Shown here one piece after another: positions 40,089 through 47,053 of a stretch of 64,000 nucleotides of DNA. Position numbers and translations under genes: made by a program. Positions within the stretch are counted from its first letter, which is position 1. Each line of letters opens with the position of its first letter. The DNA is taken from the IMG/VR virus record IMGVR_UViG_3300019890_000003, positions 1 through 64,000 of that record, one strand, 5' to 3'. This DNA comes from a virus. The notes below the pieces were generated by a model that saw nothing but the letters and a program-made list of their open reading frames with translations, was not told the DNA's origin and ran no database searches.

Positions 40089-40140
40089 ATCATGCCTGTG
40101 AAACTTTGTAAGGTGGATACTTCAACAACGAGTGATACAC

Positions 40141-41073
40141 ATGACTATCAACGCCAAGATACTCGCCCCATCAGACCGCGAAGAATGGCTAGAGCAACGC
40201 CGCCGCGTAGTTGGCGCGAGCGAGATCGCCGTGTTGTTCGATAAATCGCCCTGGGTAAGCCCGTTCAAGCTGTCCGCAATCAAAGGCGGCCTAATTGAGG
40301 ATGATGACGAAAATCAGAACATGCGGTGGGGACGCTTGCTTGAACCTATTGCCGTCCAACTTATTAAGGAAGAGCATCCGGATTGGACCGTCCAATATAA
40401 CACCCTCCCCAATCTGCAATATTTTGTAGATCCTGCTAATCGAATTGGCGCGACGCCGGATGCTTTCGTAAAAATTCCAGGGCGTGAGGGGCGCGGCATA
40501 ATTCAAATAAAATCCGTCGATCAGTCTTCTTTCAGAAAGCGATGGCTTCAAAACGGCGGTGATATAGTGCCGCCTATTTATGTCGCACTACAGGCAGCCA
40601 TTGAGTGTGCCATTACTAATTCCCAATACGCTCTTGTCGCAGCACTGGTTATCAGAGAAGATTTACACTTAGAAGAAGTGCCGTTGACGCCAGGCCTCTA
40701 TGCCGCCGCCGCCGCGCGCTCACTAGCATTTTGGGAGAAAGTTGATCGTGGAGAGACGTATGCGCCAGACTTCGAAAAAGACGGAGATCTCATCCGCAAC
40801 ATCTACGCCGACGCGTCGGACGGGAAAGAGATCGATCTCAGCGGAGACAACGAAATTCTTGAATTGGCGGAAAACGATCGGGTCCTCATGGGCGTTGAAT
40901 CAGAAGCCACAGCCGCCCGCAAAATCATCAAGAACAAACTCAAATTCAAAATGAAGGATGCCAACGTTGCGCTGTTTCGCGGGGATGTTATCGCGACGGC
41001 CACGACCGTGCATCGAAAACCGACAGCGGCCACGACCTACAGGCAATTTAAATTTAAGGAGAACAAGCAATGA
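40141..41073 (+). CDS. YqaJ/lambda-exonuclease-like recombinase nuclease
   Basis: A 310-residue protein: EEWLEQRRRVVGASEIAVLF, MRWGRLLEPIAVQLIKEEHP, NRIGATPDAFVKIPGREGRG, IIQIKSVDQSSF, VPPIYVALQAAIECAITNSQ. These match YqaJ motifs: GAS, GR..E, the catalytic D(x)9-15 E/Q-x-K (Asp in TPDAF; Gln-x-Lys in IQIKS) and the Q in the YV.LQ helix. It resects dsDNA ends 5' to 3' for annealing by RecT (43242). ATG preferred over a GTG three codons earlier. Confidence 0.75.
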   Translation: MTINAKILAPSDREEWLEQRRRVVGASEIAVLFDKSPWVSPFKLSAIKGGLIEDDDENQNMRWGRLLEPIAVQLIKEEHPDWTVQYNTLPNLQYFVDPANRIGATPDAFVKIPGREGRGIIQIKSVDQSSFRKRWLQNGGDIVPPIYVALQAAIECAITNSQYALVAALVIREDLHLEEVPLTPGLYAAAAARSLAFWEKVDRGETYAPDFEKDGDLIRNIYADASDGKEIDLSGDNEILELAENDRVLMGVESEATAARKIIKNKLKFKMKDANVALFRGDVIATATTVHRKPTAATTYRQFKFKENKQ

Positions 41074-43187: not shown

Positions 43188-43218
43188 TGACGGAGGCAGG
43201 GGCATTTGCCCTTAGGGT
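43188..43218 (+). promoter_or_regulatory. Operator before recT with weak promoter
   Basis: GGGCATTTGCCC (43200-43211) followed by TTAGGGT; upstream TGACGG stands 19 bases from TAGGGT. The operator is perfect but the promoter boxes are poor. Confidence 0.4.
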
Positions 43219-43241
43219 GGTTAGAACTTAGGGAGGTTGCT

Positions 43242-44225
43242 ATGAATGACATAGTCGCACGCGATGACAAAATTGCATCCAAAATCGACACCGAGGTCAC
43301 CGGGAACTTGCCAGTCTCAAACAGCGCTGGCGGCGTGAATTTCGCCAACGCCGGGCAGGTTATGGAATTCGCTAAAATGTTATCGGTATCGAACGTCGCC
43401 GTGCCGAAACACCTTCGGGGCAACCCCGGCGCTTGCTTGGGAATTGTCATGCAAGCGATCGAGTGGCGCATGAGCCCGTTCGCCGTCGCGAACAAATCCT
43501 ATAGCGTCAGCGACAGGCTCGCATACGAAGCCCAGCTGATCCACGCGGTTGTCTTGCAACGCGCGCAGATTGTCGGCCGCATCAAATTTGAATTTAGCGG
43601 AGATGGCGCGTCACGCACATGCCGCACATGGGCGCAGCTCAAAGGCTCTGACGAGATCGTGGATTACACCTCGCCCAGGATCGGCGATATCAAAACCAAA
43701 AACTCGCCGTTGTGGGCGGCGGATCCGGACCAACAGCTAGGTTACTATTCTGTGCGCGCCTTTTGCCGCCGGAATTTCCCAGAAATTCTCATGGGCATTT
43801 ATTCCAAGGACGAACTCGAGGAGTCGCCGCGCATCGGCCCGGAGGCCGCCAGGGACGTCACCCCCAAGAGATCCTTAGCCGATAGGCTAGCATCAATCGC
43901 CGACAATAAGGACAATAGGTTCTATCGGCAGACGCCGGAAGCTATCGCGGAAGAACATGCCGCAGAGGCCAAGCACGATCCGGAGACAGGCGAGGTTGTT
44001 GATAAGGAGCATCAAGAGCATCCGCTTGAACATCCAGGTGTGAAGGGGATGACTGCAGAAACCGCCGAGGTAAAGCTCGCTGGGATGCTCGCCGCGAGGA
44101 ATGGCCAAAAAGAGTTCACTAAGTGGTGGCGTAGACTCTCGCCGCCGGATGCCGAGCGCGCGGAGCCGTATATGGAAGAGTTCAACGCAATCCTAGCGGA
44201 ACAAAGTGGTGCGCCTCGTGGCTAG
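43242..44225 (+). CDS. recT: RecT-family single-strand annealing protein
   Basis: A 327-residue protein from MNDIVARDDKIAS with GGGAGG upstream. Central RecT features: GACLGIVMQAIEWRMSPFAV, ANKSYSVSDRLAYEAQLIHA, and LGYYSVRAFCRRNFPEILMG, then IYSKDEL. RecT pairs with the YqaJ exonuclease (40141) for homologous recombination. The acidic Glu/His tail (about 250-290) and a C-terminal helical part extend beyond the core. Confidence 0.75.
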   Translation: MNDIVARDDKIASKIDTEVTGNLPVSNSAGGVNFANAGQVMEFAKMLSVSNVAVPKHLRGNPGACLGIVMQAIEWRMSPFAVANKSYSVSDRLAYEAQLIHAVVLQRAQIVGRIKFEFSGDGASRTCRTWAQLKGSDEIVDYTSPRIGDIKTKNSPLWAADPDQQLGYYSVRAFCRRNFPEILMGIYSKDELEESPRIGPEAARDVTPKRSLADRLASIADNKDNRFYRQTPEAIAEEHAAEAKHDPETGEVVDKEHQEHPLEHPGVKGMTAETAEVKLAGMLAARNGQKEFTKWWRRLSPPDAERAEPYMEEFNAILAEQSGAPRG

Positions 44226-44750: not shown

Positions 44751-44938
44751 CCGAAGAGTTCAATTACGAACGCGCCGCAATTGAAGCTGGGTGGATGCCC
44801 CTTGGCACCGGCCGCTGGATCAAGCGCGGGGCTGGCGGTTGCTACGACGGGACGGCCAGGGAATTGTGCATGTTCCTCGGCATCGGCCCGGAATGGGAGG
44901 CGTGGAAGGCAAAGCCATATGTCAAACCGTCCAGCTAG
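44747..44938 (+). CDS. Small hypothetical protein
   Basis: A 63-residue protein (NYERAAIEAGWMPLGTGRWI, CMFLGIGPEWEAWKAKPYV). A compact Trp-rich module common in small phage ORFs; function unknown. ATGA-coupled. Confidence 0.45.
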   Translation: MTEEFNYERAAIEAGWMPLGTGRWIKRGAGGCYDGTARELCMFLGIGPEWEAWKAKPYVKPSS

Positions 44939-45095
44939 CTTTACCGAAGCCGATGCGAAGCGCGCATGCAGGGCCGCGCCGGATCGGGTCGTGGAGATCC
45001 ATTTGCCGGATGGGACGGTGATCCGTATGATTCCAGGCGGCACGCAAGAAGCAGTTAAGTCCACGGTTGTGGAGAAAAAGGACGTTAGGCTGTGA
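44919..45095 (+). CDS. Small conserved protein (ASFTEADAKRA type)
   Basis: A 58-residue protein from MSNRPASFTEADAKRACRAA; I recognise the PASF...D..RA...A pattern followed by VEIHLPDGTV.I from many short alphaproteobacterial phage proteins. Function unknown. Overlaps the previous gene. Confidence 0.5.
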   Translation: MSNRPASFTEADAKRACRAAPDRVVEIHLPDGTVIRMIPGGTQEAVKSTVVEKKDVRL

Positions 45096-45310
45096 AAATT
45101 ATAGTCGCAGCAGCGACCGTCGCCATCACCACGACTGGTGTGCCGCATGCCGATCCGCGTGGCCCTATTACCGACGATTTCAAGCGAGGGGCGTGCTACG
45201 TTCTCGATCTATGGAATCAGACACTTCGTATGCCTGACGGCACGAAGATGCAGGGAGATATCACGCTTTCTGGCAAAAACTCATTCACCTGCCCAATGGC
45301 TCCACAATGA
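45092..45310 (+). CDS. Small secreted protein, GTG start
   Basis: A 72-residue protein with a short signal-like start (MKIIVAAATVAITTTGVPHA) and a mature region with two Cys (KRGACYVLDLW, SFTCPMAPQ). GTGA overlap upstream and ATGA overlap with integrase. Not recognised. Confidence 0.45.
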   Translation: MKIIVAAATVAITTTGVPHADPRGPITDDFKRGACYVLDLWNQTLRMPDGTKMQGDITLSGKNSFTCPMAPQ

Positions 45311-46317
45311 TTCGCCCAATGCCGCCAAACCTTTACCTGGAACGCAACCGTCACGGGACGGCCGTGTTCTATGTTCGCGTCGGGAAGGGGCCACGGATAC
45401 GTGTGCGTGGGGCTTACGGGTCATCTGAATTTGCCAGCAATTACAACACTGCCATCCTCGGCATAGCGCCACAGAGCGGCCCCGTGACGGCCACGGGCAC
45501 CCTAGGATGGCTCATCGAGCGTTACGAGGATTCCAGCGCCTGGGAGAGGCTCTCCGCAGCCACAAAGAGGCAGAGGGGCTATGTCTTCAAGACCGTGGCC
45601 AAGCGGGCAGGGGATACGCCGCTAAGTTCCATCACAGCGAAGGTTATACGGCAGGGCGTCGAGGATCGCGCCAAGACGCCATTCGCCGCCAATGGTTTTC
45701 TGAAAACGATGCGCGTGCTGTTCCAATGGGCCAAGCGCGCGCAACACGTTGATGCGGATCCGACCGCAGGCGTAATGGGCTTTCCTAACAAAACTGAGGG
45801 ACACCACACATGGACGGACGAGGAGATTTCGTGTTTCGAATCGCGGTGGCCAGTCGGGACCCGACAGCGATTGGCACTCTCTATTTTGCTCTTTACGGGG
45901 TTGCGCCGTGGGGATGCCGCAGTGCTAGGACGGCAACATATCAAGGGTGGTGTGATCTCATTGCGAACCACAAAGACCGGCCAGCAAGTCACTATCCCAA
46001 TCCTCCCTCAGCTTGCCGAGATTATAAATGCGACGAAGACGGGTGACCTCGCCTTCATTGCGACGGCGGCCGGCCGGCCAATGACGGCGGAGAGTTTCGG
46101 ATCTTGGTTCCACGAGGCGTGCAAGGCGGCTGGGGTGCCAGGATCCGCGCATGGGTTGCGCAAGGCGGGCGCGACGCGCGCGGCGAACAACGGCGCGACG
46201 ACGGCTCAATTGAATGCCATTTATGGATGGACTGGCGAGAAGATGGCGTCGCTCTATACGAGGAATGCCGATCGTGCGCGGTTGGCGCGGGACGCAATGA
46301 GGAAGCTAGTGAAATGA
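45307..46317 (+). CDS. int: Tyrosine integrase
   Basis: A 336-residue recombinase. Residues 5-55 are an N-terminal arm-binding-like domain (RHGTAVFYVRVGKGPRIRVR, GAYGSSEF). A SAM-like core-binding domain covers about 65-160. The catalytic set is visible: Arg200 in TGLRRGD, Lys in TTKTGQQV, His282-x-x-Arg285 in HGLRKAG, Trp308 in YGWTG and Tyr317 in SLYTRNAD. It would integrate the phage at attB; the putative attP lies just downstream. Confidence 0.9.
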   Translation: MIRPMPPNLYLERNRHGTAVFYVRVGKGPRIRVRGAYGSSEFASNYNTAILGIAPQSGPVTATGTLGWLIERYEDSSAWERLSAATKRQRGYVFKTVAKRAGDTPLSSITAKVIRQGVEDRAKTPFAANGFLKTMRVLFQWAKRAQHVDADPTAGVMGFPNKTEGHHTWTDEEISCFESRWPVGTRQRLALSILLFTGLRRGDAAVLGRQHIKGGVISLRTTKTGQQVTIPILPQLAEIINATKTGDLAFIATAAGRPMTAESFGSWFHEACKAAGVPGSAHGLRKAGATRAANNGATTAQLNAIYGWTGEKMASLYTRNADRARLARDAMRKLVK

Positions 46318-46331
46318 AATGGCAACATTCG

Positions 46332-46548
46332 CCCGCACCGGATTTAACCCTAGCGCCCGCACCTCGTCCGAAGCCGAATAAAATCAACCTCAAAAATAAG
46401 CACTCGTGTCCCAGCCGGGAATGTCGGTTTAGTGTGAAAGACTAATAGAATCAATGATGGTGCGGGAAACTTCGAGGGGGGAATTTACTATAAAGGCTTA
46501 AATGGACGTTAAATTACACACCACATTCCCCGCACCTACCCCCGCACT
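46332..46548. other. Putative attP region with arm-type repeats
   Basis: CCCGCACC at 46332, 46356 and 46529, CCCGCACT at 46541, and inverted GGTGCGGG at 46459, in a 244-base gap after int. Left copies are 24 bases apart, right copies 12. The layout of short repeats flanking an A+T-rich core (about 46375-46450) fits integrase arm-type sites round an attP. No tRNA 3' end is seen. Confidence 0.5.
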
Positions 46549-46561
46549 TTGAGAGTTAATT

Positions 46562-47053
46562 ATGCCTAAGCCGCTGCCGCCTTATCTTCGCAAAGAAATC
46601 ACGCGCCACGGACATGTTGTCTGGTACGTCCGCGTCCGTAAGGGTCCAAGAACACGAATCCGTGGAGAGTTTGGATCTGAACATTTCATGAAGTCATATA
46701 GCGCGGCGATAGTCGGAGACCCGGTTCCGTCGCTGGCAGATGGCCATTCACAAATGATGCGGGTCGGCACCTCGCCGAAACCGACGGGGCATATCTATTT
46801 CGCCAGCGACGGGCGTTATATTAAAATTGGGTTTGCTTCGAATGTCAAAAACAGAGTCGCAAGTCTGCAAACCGGGCATCACAAAAAACTTGCTGTTCTC
46901 CGAGTTGAGAAGGGAACCATGGAGGATGAGGCCAAATTTCACGAACGATTTGCGACTCTTCGCGCTCGCGGTGAATGGTTTCGCCGAGAAGGCGAACTTG
47001 CTGAGTACGTCGGCATAGAGCCGATAACATTTCACAAGGACGTCAGGCTCTAA
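46562..47053 (+). CDS. Integrase arm-binding domain fused to a GIY-YIG (MUG113/T5orf172-like) nuclease domain
   Basis: A 163-residue protein. Residues 6-52 align with integrase residues 7-53 with about 26 of 47 identities by eye (RHG..V.YVRV.KGPR.R.RG). After a linker, residues 76-150 follow the T5orf172/MUG113 pattern: HIYFASDGRYIKIGFASNVK (IYF for GIY, KIG for YIG), NRVASLQTGHHKKLAVL with the family Arg, DEAKFHERF and GEWFRREGELAEYV. It lies 13 bases beyond the probable arm-type repeats. The DNA-binding half would aim a nuclease at the attP arms. Function is inference. Confidence 0.75.
   Translation: MPKPLPPYLRKEITRHGHVVWYVRVRKGPRTRIRGEFGSEHFMKSYSAAIVGDPVPSLADGHSQMMRVGTSPKPTGHIYFASDGRYIKIGFASNVKNRVASLQTGHHKKLAVLRVEKGTMEDEAKFHERFATLRARGEWFRREGELAEYVGIEPITFHKDVRL

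Follow-up and report, generated by a model that had tools for sequence, protein, structure and literature searches.

What a nuclease would do with the DNA-binding domain of an integrase is the question raised by a small gene in the 64-kb stretch analyzed here (the window, taken from an IMG/VR virus record of 77,681 bp). The gene (46562..47053, + strand) encodes a protein of 163 amino acids and lies downstream of a tyrosine integrase (45307..46317, + strand; PF00589, 1.5e-15; phrog_1, 1.7e-36). A sequence-only reading had proposed that it joins an integrase arm-binding module to a GIY-YIG nuclease, and this is borne out by BLASTP and by curated Pfam profiles. The GIY-YIG domain is placed at residues 76-150 (46787..47011, +) by profile matches and alignment with relatives. 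MUG113 (PF13455) matches residues 88-147 (E 9.8e-10; 39.3 bits against a curated cut-off of 22.3) and T5orf172 (PF10544) residues 76-141 (E 5e-5; 24.2 bits, curated cut-off 20). Retained are the catalytic residues Y79, K88-I89-G90, R98, E123, H127 and E138-W139, in alignment columns that are invariant with the relatives. Residues 1-52 (46562..46717, +) are assigned to the arm-binding domain from identity to the adjacent integrase and from the structural model, and residues 53-75 (46718..46786, +) to a linker with low model confidence. Comparison at the protein level thus confirms the two-part make-up, an integrase-type arm-binding domain and a predicted GIY-YIG nuclease domain.

The N-terminus resembles the paralogous arm domain at residues 1-52 of the adjacent integrase (28 of 52 residues identical, 54%, E 9e-17 in a single BLASTP comparison), well above chance; the earlier count of 26 identities in 47 positions over residues 6-52 is exactly reproduced. 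The idea that the module derives from this particular integrase is not supported. Other integrases of the subfamily reach up to 58-63% identity to the fusion arm, and the neighbor ranks only 70th of 119 integrases by closeness. A recent tandem duplication of the window integrase N-terminus was considered and rejected because the fusion arm is closer to these other integrases.

The arm domain model (44 relatives in the alignment; pLDDT 86) has three strands and then a helix (beta9-13, beta19-24, beta30-33, helix40-51). When the 514 best Foldseek chains were re-aligned to it, the top three were integrase arm-type domains, those of HPI (3jtz, Z 3.9), a P4-like integrase with attP (3rmp, Z 3.8) and HAI7 (3ju0, Z 3.7), although these scores are low in absolute terms. 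Foldseek alone gave no match at E <= 0.001, Pfam arm profiles did not match the window arm domain, and a PDB sequence search gave no relevant match. The full-length model of the 163-residue protein (P0001) is of low confidence (pLDDT 63), and a structure search with it was uninformative. The structure prediction proposed earlier as a check gives the beta-beta-beta-alpha order, with integrase arm-type domains as top matches at low Z. The likeness to structurally known arm domains (3jtz, 3ju0, 3rmp; Pfam Arm-DNA-bind) consists in this predicted fold order and in the sequence relation to the adjacent integrase N-terminus; unlike them, the fusion arm is joined to a nuclease instead of to core-binding and catalytic recombinase domains.

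Could the gene simply be a decayed remnant, a functionless product of chance in which part of a duplicated integrase was joined to a nuclease gene? A peptide-pattern search of viral and genome contigs found no close relative of the whole protein, which would fit such an origin. However, the reading frame is open, the catalytic residues are kept, and independent fusions recur at other loci (below), so that we consider this explanation very improbable.

The stretch between the two genes (46318..46561, +) is the probable attP region, given its position and an array of sites like that of relatives. The repeat CCCGCACC occurs in 8 copies in the 64 kb (2.96 expected), and half of these fall within 46332-46536. 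The copy at 46332..46339 (+) is in the P1 position, 77 nt past the catalytic tyrosine codon, as in about 60 relatives; those at 46356..46363 (+), 46459..46466 (inverted, - strand) and 46529..46536 (+) are further predicted arm-type sites. A degenerate arm-type site, CCCGCACT, lies at 46541..46548 (+) (a fifth copy, CCCGCACTT at 46541-46549). It precedes the nuclease ATG by 13 bases, and the ATG position agrees with the distance from the repeats given earlier.

The motif CCC[GT]CAC is found at 1.10 per kb in the 900 bp that follow the 3' end of integrases of this subfamily and at 0.35 per kb elsewhere, a threefold enrichment with conserved spacings, so that the repeat is not due to chance. Counting 8-mers without a composition filter returned GC-rich noise only. 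The CCCGCACC repeats fit this motif, which is found again, in a conserved arrangement, next to dozens of the subfamily's integrases. In many phages P1 lies in the integrase 3' tail (58-84 nt past the catalytic tyrosine codon in most of the about 60 integrases listed), an inverted site follows 17-18 bp further, and then come inverted and direct sites 49 bp apart. Between arm sites of this layout, a TGGTGGGGGA-like stretch matches the 3' end of a tRNA, and a tRNA-Tyr is located there in one prophage (L028). Because of the 3' enrichment, the fixed layout and the similar P1 distance in relatives, the CCCGCACC repeats are very probably attP sites of the arm type, as the sequence-only reading had suspected.

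The combination of arm and nuclease is not a single isolated case. The proposed search for the same fusion beside other integrases, made here by scanning DNA for the arm-motif pattern and then by profile scans and genome searches, found further examples and a recurrent class that uses GIY-YIG or HNH nucleases. Both are classic folds of free-standing phage homing endonucleases. An arm+GIY-YIG gene lies upstream of the integrase in L137, another lies 4 bp from its integrase in L304 (PF00589, 5.9e-14), and a protein in L309 (3530-4261) has both Pfam Arm-DNA-bind_3 (2.2e-10) and MUG113/T5orf172. No integrase was recognized within 4 kb at the L309 locus, and its product is possibly an attP-directed nuclease that acts on another element. 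A survey of 297 and 298 genomes of two families, and of about 397 at order level, returned one further arm-GIY protein, that of L137. About 16 distinct arm+HNH genes lie beside integrases; most of these directly adjoin the 3' end of the integrase gene or overlap it. Their arms belong to several unrelated classes, and the HNH family matches the endonucleases of phrog_3322. Recurrence of such fusions beside phage integrases suggests nucleases that, as a class, are directed at attachment sites. Short arm-bearing ORFs in L072/L115, L089, L110, L136 and L140 were read as broken or frameshifted integrases and were not counted as fusions.

Several other GIY-YIG genes were noted in these neighborhoods. 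By eye, the N-termini of three proteins are integrase-like (L141, 1207-1875; L307, 1421-2062; L323, 3806-4270), with no Pfam arm match. Two arm-less genes (L042, 5745-6347; L065, 2357-3211) have frames that cross the attP region, and the nuclease domain starts just past the last arm site. Upstream of integrases of the same subfamily are GIY-YIG genes in L126 (1465-2019, - strand), L053 (11584-12210) and L055 (11996-12604, near-identical to L053). The L126 and L053 proteins carry an HTH_17-type domain by Pfam (below the cut-off in L053), a second kind of DNA-binding domain on GIY-YIG nucleases in the same integrase neighborhood. The slot upstream of int is occupied by the arm-GIY gene in L137 and by the HTH_17-GIY gene in L126, with 79% DNA identity across the neighboring int region.

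With arm sites within 13 bp of the gene, the protein might act in recombination itself, by competing with the integrase for these sites or by nicking or resolving intermediates at attP, attL or attR, and so alter the direction or efficiency of integration and excision. Members of the HNH group overlap the stop codon of int, would be co-translated with the integrase, and are similar to endonuclease VII, a junction resolvase (phrog_1035). This role in recombination control nonetheless appears unlikely. Occurrence is sporadic: the majority of the subfamily's integrases have no such gene, which is thus not required for recombination; two unrelated nuclease folds and a variable position fit a mobile add-on better.

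The arms of the nucleases are linked to the integrases beside them. Of the HNH genes of this family, 23 lie within 1.5 kb of an integrase and 47 do not; integrase-like N-termini were found in 17 of the former and in 1 (a marginal case) of the latter. Seven of the 17 positives were search seeds; with seeds removed the contrast is 10 of 16 against 1 of 47. Fisher's test for integrase proximity gave p 8e-10, from counts that differ slightly from the final tally (17/6 vs 1/46) and from loci that are not fully independent. When the HNH N-termini were compared with every other ORF of their own locus, 15 of 18 matches were to the neighboring integrase. Across 18 nuclease-integrase pairs the cognate integrase was the best match in nine, and the observed sum exceeded that of every one of 100,000 shuffles; the window fusion's own integrase ranks 6 of 18. 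Where the attP repeats have changed, to TCCCCAAACC in L010 and to GGGCGCACC in L137, the nuclease and integrase arms still match (ranks 1 and 2 of 119). Judged from these comparisons, the arm of the nuclease usually matches that of the neighboring integrase. The arm is unmatched to the locus's own integrase in four arm-HNH genes (L069, L006, L155 and L169). Together with the window, these cases fit horizontal spread and weaken strict co-specificity.

The same comparisons bear on the idea that the beta-sheet module tethers the protein to DNA in a general way, with no arm-site specificity, and is found near integrases through hitch-hiking. Similar beta-sheet DNA-binding domains (AP2) are common in HNH homing endonucleases (PMC10448857), and a structural match of Z 3.9 is weak in absolute terms. 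However, integrase-like N-termini are almost confined to integrase-adjacent nucleases, and they match the neighboring integrase's own arm class. We therefore regard a general tether as quite improbable.

How the genes came to lie at arm sites can be read from occupied and empty loci. L153, which has an arm-HNH gene, and L061, which has no nuclease, share 83% identity in the left flank (the 3' part of the integrase, to Tyr+57) and 79% in the right flank. Counted from the catalytic tyrosine, P1 is displaced from +58 in the empty locus to +629 nt in the occupied one, and in L153 the last part of the nuclease frame covers the attP stretch that belongs to the integrase frame in L061. A second pair shows displacement of P1 from +70 (L054, empty) to +628 nt (L169, occupied), with weaker homology in the right flank (71% over 63 nt). 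In these alignments the arm-HNH gene occupies the stretch between the catalytic tyrosine and P1, directly in front of the outermost arm site. Position differs among members: the HNH genes precede P1, the window arm-GIY gene comes after the array, 13 bp past the last arm site, and the L137 gene is upstream of int. No empty-site relative of the window locus was found, and insertion is seen for HNH members only. In their case, insertion of the gene exactly at an arm site suggests homing-type behavior, a function absent from the earlier list of possibilities.

The closest proven counterpart is Odn, the origin-directed nuclease of Vibrio phage ICP1, in which a T5orf172 nuclease carries a captured DNA-binding domain, RepA_N; this domain resembles that of the target satellite's initiator, and Odn cuts the satellite's replication origin at iterons, as was proven experimentally (PMC8263062). 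Phages related to ICP1 have matching RepA_N variants (PMC10448857). In Odn as in the window fusion, a nuclease is joined to the DNA-binding domain of a protein that acts at the target. The domain is RepA_N and the target a satellite origin in the one, whereas in the other the domain is an integrase arm and the presumed target attP, where cleavage would occur. In the Odn type the domain is taken from a parasite or competitor and the nuclease gene lies in another element; the window gene departs from this, since it adjoins an integrase of its arm's own subfamily within one phage. The wider class uses HNH as well as GIY-YIG folds. With free-standing phage homing endonucleases (T5orf172 GIY-YIG, HNH and AP2-HNH), of which GIY-YIG and HNH are the classic folds (PMC10448857), these proteins share the nuclease folds, separate DNA-binding and nuclease ends, sporadic presence and, among HNH members, insertion adjoining the presumed recognition site. 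They differ in that the DNA-binding domain is that of the neighboring tyrosine integrase, and the presumed target an attachment site instead of a conserved gene.

We give about an even chance to the reading that the gene product is an attP-directed chimeric nuclease of the homing type that captured an integrase arm domain. The N-terminal domain, of the same kind as that of the integrase, would bind the attP arm-type sites CCC[GT]CACC, and the GIY-YIG domain would cut or nick the DNA close by. The chief target would be the attP of related co-infecting or resident phages that lack the gene, in keeping with the earlier suggestion of attP and related phages as targets, which the data support as a prediction. 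Repair from the gene-bearing copy would then introduce the nuclease gene, with linked attP and integrase DNA, into the allele that was cut, and cleavage would also harm the competitor's ability to integrate. The phage's own attP keeps intact arm sites; self-protection would thus have to rest on displacement of the cut position from the outermost arm site by the inserted gene.

Competitor exclusion with no homing step is a possible but less probable reading. An Odn-like nuclease of the resident phage would destroy attP wherever the same arm sites occur in a superinfecting phage, an excised prophage or a satellite, blocking integration or replication of these elements, and linkage to int would keep its specificity matched. 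Odn is the nearest proven mechanism of this sort, a subfamily-wide arm domain with conserved sites provides a ready set of targets, and the L155 arm is unlike that of its own integrase, as if aimed at others. However, exclusion does not need a position at the arm array or a clean insertion at P1, and the phage's own attP bears the same sites. At L155 (2759-4600), an integrase with a divergent arm and AGTGACTAA repeats is followed by an arm-HNH gene with a CCCGCACC-class arm, a mismatched pair.

More broadly, we lean slightly toward an undescribed and widespread class in which GIY-YIG and HNH nucleases have repeatedly captured the neighboring integrase's arm, move into attachment sites by homing and determine which temperate phage integrates. 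No published description of integrase-arm nucleases was found among the open-access papers covered by the search. If this is correct, phages aim nucleases by the integrase's own address code, and attachment sites are a battlefield or a homing target. The pairing of integrase arm and nuclease provides a directly testable rule, the sites being known from attP; the chimeric nucleases form a natural set, and the neighboring attP could tell the specificity of each. For a large integrase subfamily of alphaproteobacteria, a conserved map of arm sites is a further result.

Two genes upstream of int in the window encode a YqaJ exonuclease and a RecT annealing protein (40132-41073 and 43206-44225). They would be the phage's own recombination system, which would favor repair-based homing. 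A small gene upstream of int (44919-45095, MSNRPASFTEADAKRACRA...VVEIHLPDGTVIRMIPGG) resembles by eye the small genes that immediately precede int in Pam5 (Pam5_33) and in L137, and is a candidate excision factor.
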